From assembly GCA_963855995.1 (NCBI GenBank), contig OY979723.1, positions 4,180,501 to 4,244,500 on the forward strand: 64,000 nt of DNA. Direction: 5' to 3'. Of the stretch, positions 508 to 62,600 are shown piece by piece. Position 1 is the stretch's first letter. The number at the start of each line of letters is the position of its first letter. The stretch is from Muricea muricata. Lineage: Eukaryota > Cnidaria > Anthozoa > Malacalcyonacea > Plexauridae. Below the pieces are notes generated by a model. That model ran no database searches and had not been told where the DNA came from. It saw nothing but the letters and a program-made list of their open reading frames with translations. Made by a program: the position numbers and the translations under genes.

Positions 508-758
508 AATGCGCGTGTTTTGTGTGCTGCGCGGCAACGCAATTGTAATTTAATCTTTTCGACAACGTTGCCGAAAATTAAAATCATTTTAACTTTCGGC
601 AACGATTGCAGAAAATATCGTATTACACTTGTCAATTGCTCACATCCTCAGCCAATGAAATTCAAGTACTTAAGTAATGCAGGCTCGTTAACTGCATGAA
701 CATTAAAATTTCTTCGAGAACCGGGACGCGTGTCGCGTGTTTCTTGCGTTTTCAAAAC

Positions 759-2187
759 ATGGGGGCATCACAAGAACTGTTCGAAGTAAATACTGTTGGG
801 CACTTGACTTGAAATCTTTGATTTCATTTTACCAAAAGAATCCTGTGCTATGGAATCCATCTCATCCACAGTATAGGAACCATGCATTGAAAAACAAAGC
901 AAAAGAAGAACTGGTAAAAGCACTTGGCTTGAAATATACAATTGAGGTTCTCGAAAAGAAACTTGATAGCCTTAGGACATCCATGCGCCAAGAGGTTAAA
1001 CGAATTTTGGAAACAGAAAGCAGTGCTAATGATGAAGAACCTTCCACCAAAAAACCGAAGAGACCTTGGGTACATTATGAGGACATGTTGTTTATGAAGA
1101 AAGACATTGAGCGAGGTAATCTTTTCGTCTCTGGAGAAGCCACAATAGTAACAAATTGCAATCACATTCTCAAAATTTTTAGTAAATAAATTACGATAAC
1201 TTTAGTATTTCATTAATTTATAGATATCATGAAAGAGAAGGAAAAAGAAAAATTGGCATTCGGTGAAGAGGATAGACAGCAGCTGATAGATTATTACAAA
1301 GAGCATCCAATGCTTTGGAATTCCCAGCTGAAGATTACCGAAACAGGGATTTAAGATGAGTAAATTTGGAACGTCTTGCCAGACAGCTTGATTCTCGTTA
1401 CTCTGTTGAAAAAATCCAACAAGAATGGCACAATCTGACTACATACTTTGATCGAGAAAGAATGAGGATGGAAGGAAGCAAAAAATTAGGTGCTGGGTCT
1501 GATGAGGTTTACCAAACAAGTTGGCCATACTATACAGGCATGGAATTTTGTTCGGACAAATCAAATCCAGATGATACAGTTGCAATACTGAATCATATTG
1601 CTCCAGTCCCTAAGAAGGAGAAGACAAAAAATGACTATGAGGAGAAGAAAGCAAAATTATGGGAAGTACTTAGTGAACGCTTGTTGACAAACACCTCAAA
1701 TACTGATAGTAACACCAGGCAAATGGCATGGCAGCAAGGATTCCAAGCTGGATTTCAACAAGCTTGGAAACAGTGTTCCCAAATGTTTATGCAACAACAA
1801 ATGCCAAATTTTTTGGGAAATACATCAGTGAGATCAACACCTACAGAAAGAACAAACAACCCAATTATACAAATTCAACCTCAGTAAAATTTTCCACACC
1901 CATTCCAAACACCACCGTCACATTCTGCATCATCACGATACGGTACACCGCCATCACAACAACAATCCCTGATAACACCCCGCAGTCATTTTGAGAGAGC
2001 AAGACCAGCCAACAAGGTTAATAGATGTACTGAATGCGGACGCTCTACAAAGTACATGTGTGTTAATTGCCCAACCATAATAGGTAATGCCTGTTCAACT
2101 CCTGCAGATCCACTTGAATGCCAAAATTACAATAAAGAGGGTGAAATTAGGCGAGTAGGCTACTGCGACAACTGTCCTGAAGATTAG
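759..2187 (+). pseudogene. Harbinger accessory protein with tandem MADF domains (broken)
   Basis: Seen: a first MADF-like domain (about 800-1110) with LISFYQKNPVLWNPSHPQYRN, a likely intron from a GT donor at about 1115 to an AG near 1225, and a second MADF domain (about 1257-1530) with LIDYYKEHPMLWN and later VEKIQQEWHNL. The second domain is broken by a probable 1-base deletion near 1320-1330 and a stop near 1355. After a further in-frame stop at 1885-1887 the same frame continues to a C-terminal zinc-binding-like segment with four CxxC pairs (CTECG, CVNCP, CDNCP) and ends at 2187. Family knowledge: PIF/Harbinger elements encode a Myb/SANT or MADF-like partner that helps the transposase bind DNA. 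The ATG at 759 is the nearest plausible start, but its frame differs from the first MADF domain, so the true 5' end is unsure. Several breaks make this a pseudogene. Confidence 0.8.
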
Positions 2188-2910: not shown

Positions 2911-3790
2911 CTACGGTAATGCACCATCACTCTCATCAGGAGTAAATTCACCAGTAACAGGATCAAACTGGTCAGCTAATCCAGGTAGAATATAGATCTT
3001 GCCAATATTTGAGTTACTTCTCAAAAAATTGTGTAATGTAATTGTACCCATTGCAATCACTGTTGCTTTCTCTTGTGAAACCATAATGAGTGATCTGAAC
3101 ACACGCCATCGGTTTGCAAGAACATTGAAAGCGTTTTCTGATATCCTTCGACACCTAGAAAGGCGGTAATTAAATATTCTTTTTTTTTCTCAATCAACCC
3201 TGGGTTGGGATAAGGTTTCATCATGTATGATGTCAACGGGAAAGCATCGTCACCAACACGCACATATGGTATGGCAGTCTTCCTTCTAGGTAATGGTCTA
3301 GGCTTTGGTACTGATAGAGGGTTTTCAACATTTTTAAGAACTGTACAAAATTGATTTCTGGCCCAGTTACCACCGTCTGACATTCTTCCATTCATACCCA
3401 CATCAGCAAATATAAATTCGTACTCTGGCCCAACAACACCCATCAAGATGATGCTATCATTGCCTAAATTGAAATATCAAGAATAAAGTATATTTTACAA
3501 AGAAAAATTTACATGAGTTTATTTATGTCAAAATTTAACCCTATGACACAACCTGTGTATTCTAGAACATACTTTTATAATCATGGTAATGGGAGCCTGA
3601 ATTTTGTGGCTGTTGCAGGAGAATTCGCTTCACATCCACTGCCCCCAAGGCATTGGGAAAGTTCCACTGGACTTCAAATTTTTCTGACAACTTCGACCAC
3701 TCTTCCTGTGTCTTTGGAGTGGAAAGGTATATTGGTCACATCACTTCGTATAGTGCTTGACATACCTCTATGACGATTTTCGAAATTGTT
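2911..3790 (-). pseudogene. Harbinger DDE transposase (HARBI1-like), broken
   Basis: Read on the minus strand, exon 1 (about 3790-3573) encodes EEWSKLSEKFEVQWNFPN followed by GAVDVKRI, where the first catalytic Asp is expected. A GTATGT donor at 3567-3572 and an AG acceptor before 3463 join it in frame to exon 2, which continues NDSIILMGVVGPEYEF then FADVGMNGRMSDGG and YVRVGDDAFPL. The third acidic residue lies in RRISENAF. Two lesions are visible: an in-frame TGA at about 3736-3738 in exon 1, and a 1-base shift in a nine-A run (plus 3180-3188) just before FNYRLSRCRRISENAF. The protein ends at the stop at 2911. The catalytic pattern and neighbours fit the PIF/Harbinger family. The N-terminal start was not found. 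Confidence 0.88.
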
Positions 3791-43791: not shown

Positions 43792-44673
43792 TCATTGTCC
43801 TATATTTGTTTTTACGTTCTTGCTGTAAGGGGGATTGTACCATATAGTGTTGCGTTGTCTGTTTCGTCTTTGCGTTCTGTTGCTGTCACTGTTTTCGTTG
43901 CTTGTAAATTGGTCGTAGGTTAAAGTTGCGTTGAAGTTGCTTTGTCTTAAAGCGTCATTGTACGTTTGGGATGAGTCATCAAATGTTTGTTTGTTGCATG
44001 AGAGTTTGTTGATACGTTTGTTGATGGATGAAGGTAGCTGCTTTACGATAGCAGGTGGGTGGTTTGAAAGACGGTTAATGTACAAGGGTTCGTCATTGGG
44101 TTTTCTGTACGGTTTGTATGTGCCGTCCGTCAAGTCAAGTGTTATGTCTAAGAAGTTTATTCGCCTCAGGTTTGCCGTAGCTGTGATTTTCAGTCCAAAT
44201 TTGCTGAAGGTTTCGATCAGCTGTTTTCTGGCCTTGTCTGCCAGTCTGCCTGATGTTGTTTTAATGGCAGCTAGGCCGTCATCACGGTACAGTCCGATGT
44301 TCTCGAAGCGATCTTCTAGCTTGTTGAGGATGAATAGGCCGACAAGTTCGCAGATTTCGGGGCCGCCGTAACTCCCCATGGTTACATCAAATGCGTCAGT
44401 AGTTTTCCTTTTTGTCCAAGTTTGGTTGTTGTGAAACAGGAGGGATTGCCTTGCGTGCTTGATAATTTTTATGTCGTGGTCAGTGATGTCGGATTGCTCA
44501 GCCCAGCTGATAGCGTCGTCTAGTAAGTGTTCAGAGATTGAAGGGTAGAATTCTGCGAGGTCGAAATTAAGAAATGCACTGTACCGTGATGACGACCTAA
44601 CCATCGCCAGAAATTTGCGACATTGAGCCCGCGGTATGTCAGCGGTGATACAAAATACGAAATATTTAAGCAA
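43792..44673 (-). pseudogene. PLE reverse transcriptase, partial
   Basis: A 293-codon open frame. Motif A FLNFDLAEFYPSI carries the first catalytic Asp. MGSYGGPEICELVGLF, then GLYRDDGLAAIKTT, holds the YxDD box (motif C). LRRINFLDITLDL, YRKPNDEPLYINRLSNHPP and IVKQLPSSINKRI follow, a pattern common to PLE proteins. RT motifs before A are missing. The frame ends at a TGA, after which FFQLIDKHFPPSNKLHKIF continues in frame, so this stop is a mutation and not the native end. Confidence 0.88.
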
Positions 44674-44699
44674 ACAAAAATACTATACTTTAGATAGGG

Positions 44700-50549: not shown

Positions 50550-52742
50550 AACAAACCAAACCAGGAGAATAAATTTCTGAACTGATAAAAAAATTTTCAC
50601 CTTACCACTCTGATGAAAAAAACTTTTATTGTTAACACTTTCCTACAGCCTCACAGGATGTTGTCTTCCCGGCCACATTTTCATTATTGCGATACAATAT
50701 TGCAATACTGATGTGCAAGTTGCTCGGAGCAAATTGGAATCGTTTTTTCTGTCTAAAATTTGCCATGTTTTAACAATATATTTGCAATTTTTTACCAAAC
50801 AAAGTGTATGAGATTTATAAATCCATGTTTCAAAAAATAACAAAATGCATTTAGTTTTTGCCGTATTTTAATAAAAAATTTAACGTAAATTCAGTGGAAA
50901 GCGAGATAGACTTCGAATGCTTAAATGCACATTGATCGCGTCCTGTTGCAAATAATTCTTTTTCCAATGACAATTTCTGTAATTCCAATTAGCTCCGTTT
51001 TTTGTGCGTATCATTATAACTCCCAAAACATAGACTCCTTCGCAGAAATATTGGCTATGTACGAAAAAACATGCCGATTTATCATAATCAAATAAAAAAG
51101 CAATAAATTAAGTTAAATGTAACAATCATTTGATTTAGCACTAAAAAGTGCATTGCAAAAACGCTAGCTAAACTAACTAAATAGTAATTAAATTAGTTTG
51201 GTACCACGATCCGAATAGCCAAAAAGGGGCAAGAGGGAGGGTGTTTCAAGGATACAGAGTTGACATCTGGCTGACTAACCCACAAATGGCATGAAAGCCT
51301 CATACACACTGCCATTAATTCAAGAGTTGAGTTTGCACGAGTGCCTGACGAAAGTAAAATTTCTAAAATGATGCAAAACCTTCCTTTGAAAATTAGTTCG
51401 ATATCTACAATCGCATGCTTCAGTAATATGTGTCACGACCTACCGAACCAAAAACCCGGAGACAGAGGCAATAAATCTATCATTCAACGACACAAATAAT
51501 CCCTTTATCGCCTCCTGTTGCAATTAATAATTATTTTTCGAATAACAATTCACGTTCCGATGAGATGAGCACTGTTTCCTGTGGGAATCATTGACCCATG
51601 AAACAAACACTCTTCTCGAGAAATAATTCTAGTGGGTATGTGCGAAAGCACATAGCGATCTATTATTTTCAAATATAGATTAATAATTTAAGGCAAATGT
51701 AACAATCATTTATTTAGCACAGAAAACGTTGTGTGCTAAAGACGCCACAAGTTTACTTGAAAAGGAATCACCCCACGCTTATCGGAAGAGAAATTGCCTT
51801 TGATATGTAAATCTGAAAACTCTACAGCAAGGCCATTAACGGTATCGCGTTGACGCGTGGTCCTAAAGACCATAATTTGAAAACTTAACTCGATGTGAGA
51901 CTTATGAATGAGACGTATAAATTATTACTGCTAACAGCTGTAATATCAACCGGCAGCCTAGCCCTTGCATCGGCGCACAGTGCAACAGTACATGCTATAC
52001 TTGAGAATTTATAAGATCACTAAACCAACAGTTCCGTGACTCATCGTGAGCCTAGCTCTTGCATTGACTACACAATGTACAGGGAATTAGCCTATACAAC
52101 CACGTGGTGCCCGACTACAGCATTGTCTTCAAGCTGAATTAATAAGTATTTGTGTTATGCAGTCTACTGTGAGTTTTTTTGTTATACAGTGTTGCTTGTA
52201 TTTCATTGCTAGATATTTTCACATGAGCGTAATATTTAAATTATTGCGAGAAACTGCTAAAAAGCAAAACGTTGTCGACGACACGTTGGCGCATAGGGAG
52301 AAAATAAATCATGTTGATTTTGGCGGTAAACAGTAGTTAATTCTATTCAATGCGGAAACATTATATTCCACAAGGGACTTTCAAAACAATACTGACCCTC
52401 ATCAATATCATTCGATACTGGAGGAAGTTGCCTGAAATCACAAATTGCAATCGCCGGAATACGTCGGAAAGGTTTAGTCACAGTATAGGGAATAGACGGT
52501 AGAACCACTCAATTGAAGTTTGTGTGTCCACGCATATCGCACCACACATCTCATTACCAATATGGCAGCCAGTCAATTGCATTTTCTGGCCAATAAGAAC
52601 GCTGAATTGACTAGTGGCAGTTAGTAAACTGCATAATGATAGGGCGCTGTGTTGCATTGCTGAGTGGCCCTACTGTCCATGTCTCAATTCCTCAAACCTT
52701 CTGAGCAATAAATTGACACGATAAAATGTTCTTCGAATTTAC
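50550..52742. other. Unit C conserved non-coding segment
   Basis: Counterpart of 6360-8606 and 30520-32584. No gene recognised. Confidence 0.55.
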
Positions 52743-53066
52743 TGAGAGACTTCGTAAATAACCAACACGTTAGCTGTTTGCCATCCGTTATAACACTCCT
52801 CTCTATCTTTTATTGATCTTACTGCAACATCAACATCCATCCTCGATGATTTTGAGCCAACAAATGAATGTACAGTTAATGCATTATCATACAAGCCAGA
52901 GGCAATCCCTGTAGTACATGCAACTGCCACATTCCTGCTGATACTAAAGAGTTTCACAAGCTTTTTAACAGTAAATGTTCTACGGGCTCCAGCAGAGCCA
53001 CAAATGGAAACATTGTGACGTGAAACAGCTTCAAGAACCTCCCTCTGTTCTGTATTTAAATTACAC
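52743..53066 (-). pseudogene. PIF1-like helicase fragment, unit C
   Basis: The longest of the three copies: CNLNTEQREVLEAVSRHNVS, GSAGARRTFTVKKLVKLF (degraded Walker A), VAVACTTGIASGLYDNALTV, HSFVGSKSSRMD and VIYEVSQ (Walker B Asp lost). The frame is open, but both ATPase motifs are broken. Confidence 0.82.
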
Positions 53067-53075
53067 GATTGCCTA

Positions 53076-53385
53076 CACAGAGTGAATCGAAAAAAACTGA
53101 TGCCATTCAAATTCAAGCTAGCCGCGAATTCATTACGGTTTATTCCCATGGGTCTACAGGGAACAGTTCTGGACTTATTACACAGTTCAGGGTGATTAAA
53201 AAAACTGAATACTATTGAAATTTGACAGACATTGTTGACTAATTCCATGCGGAATTTAAGATGCATTATTCTAGCGGTGCAAGATTTGTCAGAAACAAGA
53301 CAACAATACAGACACGTGGGAATAAACCGTGATGAAATTTGAAATTAACTTGAATTAGAAAGGGCATCAGTTTTTACCCACCTTG
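53076..53385. mobile_element. TA-flanked MITE, unit C copy
   Basis: Same insertion as 32910-33224; ends CAGAGTGAATCGAAAAAA and TTTTTACCCACCTTG. Confidence 0.75.
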
Positions 53386-57596: not shown

Positions 57597-59216
57597 AAAT
57601 TGTGAGGTTGTTTGGTGACACTCTACACTGCATGATTGAGGTTGTTATAGGAACAAAAAAGAGTGAAAGGTTATTTTTATTTGGAAAACGTTTACGCATA
57701 TGTACCTATACTTAATCATAGCTGAGCATTTTATTAGAAATATTCGACCATAACTTCACATATATTTATGAATATCATACTTATATATCCTCACAGTGTA
57801 TTACCTTGCAAACAGGATCGGCTAACTTGCCCTATTGACCTACACAACACCACCTTACCCTGGAGTTTCCAGGGTCGTACTAATTTTGATATTCAGTACA
57901 TATTCTACAAACGTTATTTAAATCAGATCCACTATTCTACAAACGCTGGATATATATATATATATATGATTGACTATTCTATTAACGTTGTATACAATTG
58001 TAATCACTTTCCTTTTTAACGTTTTATATAATTGAGATCGACCGTGCTTAAAACGTTGTATATAATTTAAATTGACTAATTACTAGCACATTCTTTACAA
58101 TATTATACTGACTAAATTTTCAAGAATACAGATCTTCTGGCTCATTCATCACTCAGCGTAATGTTAGTTTTCCGTCCTCGTAGCCTTCCCGTATCCTGCC
58201 TGTTGTATACAACTTGACATCCTCATTTCGCTTCGCGATTATTATATTTTGTCTATACTATTTACAACCTTGAACAAACTTAATATCTTGTAACCACATC
58301 TATGAAAGCTTACCTTACATGAAGTCTCGCAAAACTTACAACAAACGTATCCCTAACTATCATTAACTGACACCCACACTATCCCGTACCAACCCTCATA
58401 CTTTACACCACAATTACGCATGTGCACAACCCCCAAACACGCAATTTATTCAGACGCTTAAGGCCCCTTCTCCCCTTTAGCTCTCGCCTTTCGCAACGCG
58501 AACACTGTGAGGAATTCTTGGGATTTTGTAAACGAGATTTTGTTAACCTGATTTGTCATGGCCCAACATATTGGCTTGTCAAAAATCAACAACACATTTG
58601 GTATGCTTTCTTCTTATTTGATACATTATTGTTTATTTTTTGTCATTTATCTATCTTGTATTTCGTTTCTCTATCTTTCTAAACACGTGCCAGCCCCTTT
58701 TCCCCGCTGACGAGTCCACGAAGGACGAAACGCCGCGTACGGGGATATCTGCTTTACACACATGAAAATTCCTTCTTTCTTTCCTTCTACTGTCTTTTTA
58801 CATATCTCCTACTAGTTTTTTTGTATAAGAGACCAGTATATGTCTTGTCCTGTCGCATTTCGTGTTTTAAACACTGCATGAGGTCTAGCTATTTTTTTCG
58901 TTACATACTCATTGTTACTGCTGTTACAAAATTTTGCCAATTTTACTTGATACCAATACAGTTTCTATTACCTATTTAAGTATTTCCATTTCTAGATATT
59001 GTTTTTTACGCTCCCTGTCTCATATATTTACTTTTAGTCACTCTGTTCTGACCCACCCTCATGCTATATCATGTTTCATATTGCACCTACACTACCCCTT
59101 TTATGTACAAAGAGACTGTTGTCACAGAATATTTTTTATTTTGCTAGACACCAATATGGTTCCTATTACCTATTACTTAACAAAAAACAAAAAATATGGT
59201 TTATACGAGAAACTGC
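57597..59216. other. Unassigned insertion between units C and D
   Basis: Not matched to any unit except a short inverted piece (57628-57650, CTGCATGATTGAGG). Pyrimidine-rich on the plus strand. It contains a hammerhead ribozyme and a degenerate repeat of about 200 bp offset (ACCAATACAGTTTCTATTAC near 58952 and ACCAATATGGTTCCTATTAC near 59152). No convincing protein. Confidence 0.55.
58695..58752 (+). ncRNA. Type I hammerhead ribozyme
   Basis: Stem I CCCCG (58702-58706) pairs with CGGGG (58740-58744). The core CTGACGA is at 58707-58713, stem II GTCC/GGAC has loop ACGAA, then GAA (58727-58729), stem III ACG/CGT has loop CCG, and the cleavage-site nucleotide is A at 58739. An outer CAG (upstream)/CTG (downstream) pairing extends stem I across an internal loop. 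All conserved core positions are present. Self-cleavage 3' of A58739 is predicted from the known mechanism. Such type I motifs mark PLEs and retrozymes. Confidence 0.85.
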
Positions 59217-59675: not shown

Positions 59676-62600
59676 CTACGATTTTTTATTAATGATTCCA
59701 TGTACAACACTTGGTCCTTTCCCTTTAACGTTGTGGACCTAAAAGACAAGATTGAAAATCTTCAGACGATGAGATGAAAAATTTAGCGATTACGTGTGTA
59801 TCTGCACGAATAGCACGATTTATAGTTATGATATACAGTGGGTGGACAAAAAAAAGTGCCCCCCCCCCCATTATAATACGGTTGTTGTATATAAAGACAA
59901 AAAGTTCCAAAACAATTCAGAAATATTCACGGTGCCGTCCAGATAAATAGCAAATAACATTATGTAAGTGTCAATTTTACTACTTAGCATTCAAAAATGT
60001 ATTAATCGGTTAAATACAGAACTTGTTTCAAAGTTGTGTTTCAATGTGTGGGGGAGTTCTTCGTGGAATGGTGTTGGCGATCTGCATCGGGTAAAGGGTA
60101 TTTTGACTGGACCAGAATATCGAAAAATTTTGATTCATCATTTGGTTCCATCAGCCAATCGATTAAACCCTGAAGGCTTTATCTTCCAACAAGATAACGA
60201 CCCTAAACACACTAGTAACGTAGCTAAAAACTACCTTCAAAATAAGAAGATAGAAGTGATGAATTGGCAACCCCAATCATCGGATTTAAATCCGATTGAA
60301 AATTTATGGGGTCAACTCAATCGCTTAACTCGAGATCGCAATCCACAAAACGAAGATGAGCTTTTTGACATTCTGAAACATGCTTGGTACTCCATGCCTG
60401 ATGAATACTTACATAAACTTGTTGAACGCATCCCGAGTAGGTGCAAAGCAGTTATTAAATCTAAGGGATGGCCAACCAAATATTAACAAATGTTTTTGAC
60501 AATCTGAGAAATGCATAGACATTTTGTAGTTGGTGAAGTGTTCGTGTTATGTAAGACTTTAACACACTGTCCATAATAATTGTAAATATCATTGACTACA
60601 TTTTAAAAAAATTTGTTCAGTTTCTTTATACTTCCAATGATTGCTTTGTTGTATAATTCTCACATAAGATTAACGCTTAAATGATGTGATTTGCCACATA
60701 TCTGTTTAGTACCATGACTATTTATGAATTGTTTTTTATCCTTCATTGTTTCTTGTACATCATATATACCAATACCATATTTATGAATAGTTTGTTACCT
60801 TTATTGTTTGTTATACATCATATATACCAATAGCAGTATTAAAATTGGAGGGGGCCACTTTTTTTGTCCACCCATTGTAGCATTTCTAATAAATTTCAAT
60901 TATTTTCTCAATCTCAACACGAATATAACCCCTTGCTCTTCTGTTGAAGTTATTTATTGCTCTTTATGCTATATATACTACTAAGAATTAAATATAGGCA
61001 TATAGCTGTTGACTTGTTATGTTTCATAACCTACACAGGTACCTTTCAAATAGGCAAAATTCATTCACACACTAAATATCTTCGAATAAAGTCACAAATC
61101 ACTATACACGACTTTCGAAATTCCACAGCATGGTAGCTGTGTATATTGGAATTAGAATGGATTTTGTTTGGCTGCCATATAATAATTGAATATTTCTTTA
61201 TGCAACTTAAAACGTCGCAAATAAATGGATTCTTCATGGAAAATCCTTACTATTGAGAGACATTTGATGCTGACGATCAAACTTTTTTTGTACGTAGCCA
61301 GATTAAAAAATAGAAAACGAGACGCATGCTTTTATGGTGTGATAAAGCATGCGGGAAATGTTGGGAGAATACGAGACAAGCTTGTAAAACACGAGGCGTA
61401 GCCGAGTGCTGTACACGCTAAACAAGCCTAATCGCTGTCAATTTCGGCATTTCGGCAACTACTAAATTTGCAAGCTAAAATGTTCACCTACTCAAATCCT
61501 AGATACCTCATGTAAAATAAATAGCGCATCTGTATATCAAAAATGAAGCCAAAAATCTCAGCGGTATCCCCTCATAACAATAAACGGTGGCCATATTGGT
61601 CGTTCCTATTCATCAAAAAAAGCTACAGAAAACACTACACTTTTGTGCATGTGTGTTAAATACTTTTTAGCTACATAACACAGGACTTGTTGTCAACATT
61701 GTCCATTTTTGCAATATTAAATACACAAATTATCATGTTCCGTGTCAACTCTGTGGGAACGACCAGCGCCTGTGATCCGACTTCAATTTTCGCCTGCTTA
61801 CGTACAGTGTGGGTTGCACTATCTAGTGTATAATATTATGATATATCTATAGCTCAAATGCATAAAAATGTTTCGGCCGTTTGGCAACCGAGTTATTTTT
61901 AAGGTACTGGTAAGAAAATTGGTTTGTTATTTTGTCTATTATTTGTCACTATTATGTCGTATTCATGCCGCTGTTTGGTCTTCGAAGTCAGTCTCTTCAT
62001 TTCATATCTATGTGTTGTATAAGCATACAAACTCGAGACACAGCCAAGAGTTATATATCTGACGTGACCTGGACGCGCTTGCATGAAGTTGAAATAACTA
62101 GTAAATTATTAAAAAAAATTATCAAGTTTGTAGAATATAATTTATATTGTATGTTGGAAAGTGAACCTTCTGGCAGTACTATTTTGATTTAGATGTTATT
62201 CACAATATTTTAGAAATACATCGGTTTATGCATCAAATTATTTCAAATTTGTGTATCATATGTCCAATTAAGTCTGTTAATTAAAAATGTGATTGGCAGT
62301 CGATTAACTAATAAATTATATTATTATATATACATTGCAGTTGTTTGGTGTGATCGATGTTTGCACTGTGATTGGTCAATTGCATGCAGATCAATACGAT
62401 CGTCACGCAATTTGGATCAGCTGTTGGCTAGAAGAATAGCTGAGTTACAGTACCTGCATGTTGAGCCGACGATGCAGATTATTACAGTACGAGGTATTCG
62501 TTGGCATGGCAACAAAAGAAAACAGTAGATAATTTTTGATCTTTTCTTTTTTCATGCCATTTTGGTTACTATGCTTTTTTCCGCTTAAAGTGTATAAATA

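Follow-up and report, generated by a model that had tools for sequence, protein, structure and literature searches.

The window, which is the whole 64-kb stretch of the Muricea muricata genome analysed here, contains a truncated copy of a dispersed Penelope-like element (PLE), in which a type I hammerhead ribozyme (HHR) motif is embedded (Table 1). The coding part of this copy is gone, leaving the 3' non-coding region or pseudo-LTR (pLTR), and the copy itself is an ordinary dead, 5'-truncated fragment. Elsewhere in the window, Pfam identifies pieces of other genes, namely a PIF1-like helicase at 52739-53344 (-), a DDE_3 transposase at 59968-60486 (+), a DDE_Tnp_4 transposase, just under the cut-off, at 3057-3476 (-), and MADF domains at 707-1887 (+). 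A 296-aa frame at 43792-44682 (-), without a Pfam match to reverse transcriptases (RT), looks like a different PLE-type RT.

Table 1. Features of the PLE copy and of its hammerhead motif, in window coordinates.
Feature	Position	Strand	Basis or details
5'-truncated Penelope-like element copy, 3' non-coding region/pLTR	57656..59197 (about)	+	alignment with 20 other loci
Short imperfect direct repeats inside the element, 34-42 bp spacing	57915..58072	+	
Type I hammerhead ribozyme motif	58701..58745	+	RF00163, descriptor, same site in related copies
Helix I, extra pair	U58701-A58745	+	read from sequence
Helix I, 5' arm	58702..58706	+	pairs with 58740-58744, CCCCG/CGGGG
Hammerhead core CUGACGA	58707-58713	+	read from sequence
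Helix II hairpin GUCC-ACGAA-GGAC	58714..58726	+	arms 58714-58717/58723-58726, loop ACGAA; sequence, Rfam
Hammerhead core GAA	58727-58729	+	read from sequence
Helix III, 3 bp ACG/CGU, loop CCG	58730..58738	+	arms 58730-58732/58736-58738; sequence, Rfam, pair count
U16.1; H17	58738; A58739	+	read from sequence
A-rich 3' tail, 3' end common to genomic copies	59179..59197	+	

Among 4227 Rfam families searched, Hammerhead_1 (RF00163) gives the sole gathering-level match in the window, with 37.8 bits for a gathering score of 34 and an E-value of 5.9e-6, and the alignment spans the full model (positions 1-45). The first-pass annotation of this DNA, made from the letters alone, had proposed a type I hammerhead complete in its core, with perfect GTCC/GGAC and CCCCG/CGGGG helices, and had suggested a covariance search with the Rfam model as a check. 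Both the search and the reading of the core, of the three helices and of the A at H17 bear this out; the motif lies inside the limits given there, 58695-58752, which are a few bases too wide. At the level of its sequence, the hammerhead motif is therefore real and confirmed. By the usual cleavage rule for hammerheads, the predicted cut separates A58739, the H17 position, from C58740. Free folding of 58695-58752 reaches -14.8 kcal/mol, with a z-score of 0.00 against shuffles, and the minimum-energy fold differs from the three-helix hammerhead, so that energy alone gives the motif no support. Such a result would suit a chance hammerhead-like sequence, devoid of ribozyme function, in an unrelated repeat. 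Against chance, a strict hammerhead descriptor matches the window once, and 400 simulated windows (order-1 Markov, 64 kb each, both strands) not at all; the conservation data that also bear on this explanation are given below.

The element belongs to a dispersed family. In what follows, L-numbers designate individual loci in the window's own 453-Mb genome, and C-numbers the contigs of that genome. Queried with 58400-59200, the genome yields at least 46 matching rows, some of them short, at 83-100% identity (40 of 354 candidates scored, which makes the copy number of the family a lower bound), and a second query yields at least 48 (40 of 306 candidates scored). The first-pass annotation had named the lack of any second genomic copy as a ground for rejecting its proposal, and this condition did not occur. 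When 20 other loci are aligned with the window copy, homology extends from about 57656 to 59187-59197. The copies share their 3' end, where the A-rich tail varies, but start at many different points, as do elements that are reverse-transcribed and truncated on the 5' side. Eleven loci align from 57656-57658, ten of which share sequence further upstream, the exception being L016; the window copy departs from the family at this point, and the 57656 limit is thus set by its own truncation. Many of the 20 loci are short, and three of them start at 58010-58018 (L011, L012, L018), as could be expected of an internally deleted, non-autonomous PLE derivative, a SINE-like passenger made of the pLTR only and moved by the full element. 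The 5' ends, however, differ between copies as truncation predicts, and ten of the eleven loci just mentioned continue upstream in common sequence, which makes such a passenger decidedly unlikely.

The ribozyme recurs across these copies. RF00163 scores above the cut-off in 10 of the 14 aligned loci covered by a gathering-level search (11 matches). Of the six remaining ones, five have a match at E up to 1, which is above the cut-off in two of them, and L024 has none. No target site duplication is seen in six simple copies, a small sample with uncertain ends from which L009, a copy that continues upstream, was left out: the longest common stretch averages 5.5, vs 5.3 in 30 swapped pairs. On the contigs of known length (C1-C4, C7-C9, C13, and C14; C11, C12, C53, C64, and C68 were left out), no listed copy comes closer than 1.1 Mb to an end, and the tail is A-rich, unlike a telomere-like 3' repeat.

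Longer copies (L027, L014, L013) extend upstream into ORF1 and into an RT ORF that overlaps it in a different frame. The RT ORF of L027 encodes 662 residues and matches RVT_1 (Pfam, E 4.1e-12). A second intact 662-aa RT ORF, 99% identical to it, is found at C3:55789515-55791500, bringing the intact frames of the family to at least two (67 of 1988 candidates scored); at both loci, a 37.8-bit RF00163 match lies ~1.5-1.6 kb downstream. The family RT aligns over its full length, with 30% identity, with that of L041, a relative located 10 kb beyond the end of the window, the RT ORF of which continues into a GIY-YIG domain (PF01541, E 9.7e-7). Since it aligns along its length with an RT fused to GIY-YIG, the L027-family RT is, by sequence comparison with L041 of the same genome rather than with reference PLEs, of the PLE type. 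A sequence search of the PDB with this RT returns weak matches only (best E 0.08).

No counterpart of the L041 endonuclease is found in the HHR-bearing family. In a three-way alignment, its RT ORF and that of a second PLE family (L040, 45% identical in this alignment) both stop where the GIY-YIG linker of L041 begins. The ORF ends with ..KLRTDNS[ST] and a stop in L027, L014, and L024, and with ..KLRTDYSS in L025. No GIY-YIG domain is present in the frames that follow the RT ORF of L027, L014, and L025, and Pfam detects none in the scanned pieces, ORF1 and the RT ORF included; the HHR-bearing PLE is without an endonuclease domain in the pieces examined. In L025, a run of CAGC repeats of more than 1 kb separates the RT ORF, which ends near 1900, from the pLTR (3432), and L014 displays a shorter version of it.

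The arrangement of the pLTRs is best seen at L038 and L039. In L038, an inverted pLTR piece (691-195) that carries an HHR precedes a direct pLTR (734-1494, HHR near 1009-1053), which runs unbroken through the A-rich tail into the 5' UTR and ORF1. This pLTR-to-5' UTR junction is found again in L031 (94.5% over 435 bp), so that in two tandem junctions the element runs on past the tail that closes the other copies. L039, which is the 3' pLTR, follows ~7.7 kb after the L038 direct pLTR has ended; both direct pLTRs are seen at this one locus only. The HHR of the L038 5' pLTR scores 25.9 bits, below the cut-off, and that of the L039 3' pLTR is decayed and has no Rfam match. In L038, ~450 nt separate the HHR from the tail, and the coding region follows the HHR at a distance of roughly 0.7-0.9 kb. 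Inverted head-to-head pieces beside direct copies also occur at C1:39.43, C8:8.36, C53:0.24, and C1:9.15 Mb, and at L017. From these loci, the order in a complete copy is a pLTR with its ribozyme, ~450 nt, the A-rich tail, the 5' UTR, ORF1, the overlapping RT ORF, and a second pLTR with its ribozyme. Two sets of candidate 5' pLTRs were rejected: the split matches in L010, L016, L020, and L028, where short overlaps flanking gaps fit nested insertions, and the minus-strand 5' piece of L024 (57781-58013), in which the pLTR jumps into coding sequence and carries no HHR.

The PLE-type RT of the longer copies, together with the direct and inverted pLTR layout, identifies the host as a PLE. The motif of the window is thus, with high confidence on sequence grounds, the pLTR hammerhead of a two-ORF PLE, the examined copies of which have no endonuclease domain. 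The terminal repeat of a retroelement had been one of the two suggestions of the first-pass annotation, and it holds in this form; its statement that the host is not a recognised PLE does not.

The other suggestion was a retrozyme-like circular-RNA element; a retrozyme would be a small non-autonomous and non-coding element, unrelated to PLEs, that spreads as an HHR-flanked circular RNA. Animal non-LTR retrozymes (PMC7229834) are described with type I HHRs that have a helix III, as is the case here with a motif above the Rfam cut-off, and the window copy lacks a coding part. They are, however, non-coding tandem repeats of 150-450 bp, whereas the copies of the present family are not such monomers: the end seen in the window measures 1.5 kb, and longer copies carry the 5' UTR and the RT ORF. 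Moreover, the retrozyme-like repeat of the same genome is a different sequence. This repeat (L042, C1:118243700-118244700) displays a pair of type I HHRs spaced by 240 bp and a third, inverted one, the best with 45.4 bits; its repeated stretch is 99.3% identical over 278 bp, its HHR sequence differs from that of the window and is closely similar to that of L043, and, judged by sequence, the repeat looks like an animal retrozyme. A retrozyme is therefore very improbable as the host of the window motif, which we continue to read as the pLTR hammerhead of a PLE. Taken as a whole, the earlier interpretation stands for the motif, the terminal repeat, and the copies, and falls for the host and the retrozyme.

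Genome-wide, at least 68 RF00163 matches were obtained, at least 50 of them above the cut-off (74 of 54994 candidates scored), and they include the HHR-bearing PLE family, a subfamily on C14, a group of loci termed family B, and the distinct L042-type repeat. In 14 control genomes, a weak match is found in one and a match above the cut-off in none.

Conservation of the ribozyme depends on the distance at which copies are compared. Among 25 close copies (two fragments, L037 and the second piece of L010, being left out), differences from the majority amount to 37 of 1125 cells in the HHR (3.3%), 51 of 1675 in the 3' flank (3.0%), and 77 of 1125 in the 5' flank, and 12 of the 25 keep an intact core, helices, and H17. 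The HHR thus varies as much as the right flank, as expected for dead copies, and constraint is unsupported by these recent copies, a point that again suits a chance resemblance. An early count made against the window sequence (HHR 2.7%, flanks 6.6-6.9%) was dropped, since changes in the window copy itself had raised the values of the flanks. L037, of the C14 subfamily, was reached through its 5' coding end, independently of the ribozyme. It is 88% identical in 58653-58743 vs 70% in 58337-58661, and nothing downstream of 58743 aligns; in this one independently found subfamily copy, the ribozyme is better conserved than the upstream flank, which argues against chance.

In family B (L045-L051 and L059, at least eight loci), a near-identical ribozyme with a compensatory helix I pair is found within strongly diverged flanks. 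Its eight loci keep 47-52 of 60 bases at 58693-58752, for 38-45 of 110 on the left and 30-33 of 70 on the right, L047 being counted although more distant than the other seven; the flanking blocks are 27-47% identical, with gaps counted as differences. This island of conservation is biased, as the loci were found through the HHR itself. Pairing was counted over 26 author-chosen rows (23 distinct), i.e., 14 of 30 A-type copies, the eight of family B, and four of C14, leaving out 16 A-type copies, the retrozyme-like L042 and L043, and L044 and L058, whose family is unassigned. In these rows, 97.0% of 298 cells are paired, above all 500 shuffles, and standard pairing is kept at each of the three positions of helix III in 20-23 of the 23 distinct rows. 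At 58705/58741, a compensatory exchange from C-G to U-A occurs in seven distinct rows, all of family B, and these probably stem from one inherited change. Even with this limit and the choice of rows, the exchange and the pairing stand against a hammerhead-like sequence arisen by chance, which, with the descriptor and L037, we regard as scarcely credible.

Other PLEs of this genome are organised in several ways. The C14 subfamily, diverged to about 69-73%, occupies eight places spaced by 214-292 kb at C14:6.12-7.82 Mb (L034, L035, L037, L052-L054), all on the same strand, with RF00163 matches near at least six of them; such an arrangement looks like either a segmental repeat of giant size in tandem or a region targeted repeatedly. 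At C1:93.70-93.96 Mb (L033, L036), same-strand PLE 5' ends form a cluster, and a histone 3' UTR stem-loop (Rfam, 34.7 bits) adjoins one of these 5' ends. On C2 (40975954-41070665), at least 19 rows of a related PLE follow each other head to tail, all on the + strand, with a spacing of ~5.2 kb; 13 of the 19 listed rows match the RT almost over its full length, with an open frame of 704-709 aa. In the unit read from this array (L040), the ends are 100% identical over 200 bp, and neither an endonuclease domain nor an HHR was found.

HHRs in the pLTRs of PLEs are already known, usually in a minimal form without helix III (PMC6155905, PMC7761336, PMC7229834). A pLTR ribozyme of a PLE is thus a known kind of object, and its presence here is expected. 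The HHR-bearing PLEs described by Cervera & De la Pena 2014 (via PMC6155905 and PMC7761336) share with the present family a type I HHR in the pLTR, a PLE-type RT, direct and inverted pLTRs, 5' truncation, and many copies, and the L038/L039 layout matches the typical Penelope structure of two direct pLTRs and one inverted pLTR (PMC3846280). In contrast with the usual minimal hammerheads, the one described here possesses a helix III of 3 bp and scores above the Rfam threshold for type I. Canonical Penelope elements possess a C-terminal GIY-YIG domain, whereas the present ORF stops short of it.

PLEs deficient in endonuclease have been described as two-ORF elements (PMC6431247) found for the most part at chromosome ends, and the direct and inverted pLTR layout is reported as absent from those of protists and fungi (PMC3846280). 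The Athena elements and Terminons (PMC6431247, PMC3846280) resemble the present family by their two ORFs, the absence of GIY-YIG after the RT, and an HHR towards the 3' end. They are largely telomeric in these accounts, whereas the copies listed here on contigs of known length are chromosome-internal, with an A-rich tail that is not telomere-like and with the pLTR layout. Read from sequence, the variant features of the M. muricata family are the helix III, the non-telomeric spread, and the lack of an endonuclease domain in the pieces found, even though the pLTR layout is kept.

The Poseidon element PAc of the lizard Anolis carolinensis (PMC11167929) offers a further comparison. In that study, an internal tail is the point from which reverse transcription begins, cleavage by the HHR requires the PLE protein, mutations of the HHR leave in vitro insertion unaffected, and no reads ended at the HHR cleavage site. 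PAc shares with the present family the pLTR-ORF-pLTR order, the HHR, and a genomic 3' "tail" that serves as the start of reverse transcription inside the RNA, and by this analogy the A-rich 3' end observed here looks equivalent to the internal tail of the lizard PLE. It differs by its GIY-YIG domain and by an HHR that overlaps the ORF start, while in L038 the HHR is upstream of the coding region.

A likely mode of propagation can be sketched from these elements. Transcripts of tandem copies would be cut by the ribozyme of each pLTR, giving a unit-length RNA that starts ~450 nt upstream of the tail and that would become circular once its ends are ligated. From the internal A-rich tail, reverse transcription would then proceed round the unit. 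The Anolis results weigh against the circular-RNA step. Synthesis of this kind would account for the 3' end common to the copies and for their 5' truncations, for the repetition of the pLTR, and for the partial inverted copies placed head to head, and, combined with unit processing, for genomic copies ending ~450 nt past the cleavage site. Without a GIY-YIG domain in its ORF, the element would have to obtain the target DNA end from breaks or from the endonuclease of another PLE. A head-to-tail array such as that of L040 might arise from a circle reverse-transcribed in a rolling manner, although its unit, as read, shows no HHR. As a whole, the model of a PLE that lost its endonuclease, spreads in the chromosome interior with full pLTRs and helix-III hammerheads, and relies on a ribozyme-made, full-length circular RNA, copied from the tail round the circle and inserted via breaks or a borrowed endonuclease, is put forward as a speculation with a minor chance of being right.

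One review calls the function of the HHR in PLEs unknown (PMC7761336), and in the one PLE studied in vitro the ribozyme was dispensable for insertion (PMC11167929). One genome here holds a PLE with a helix-III hammerhead and no endonuclease domain found, an endonuclease-containing PLE, a PLE array in which no HHR was found, and a retrozyme-like repeat. With these elements side by side, the link between ribozyme, circular RNA, and mode of insertion may be tested in a single organism.
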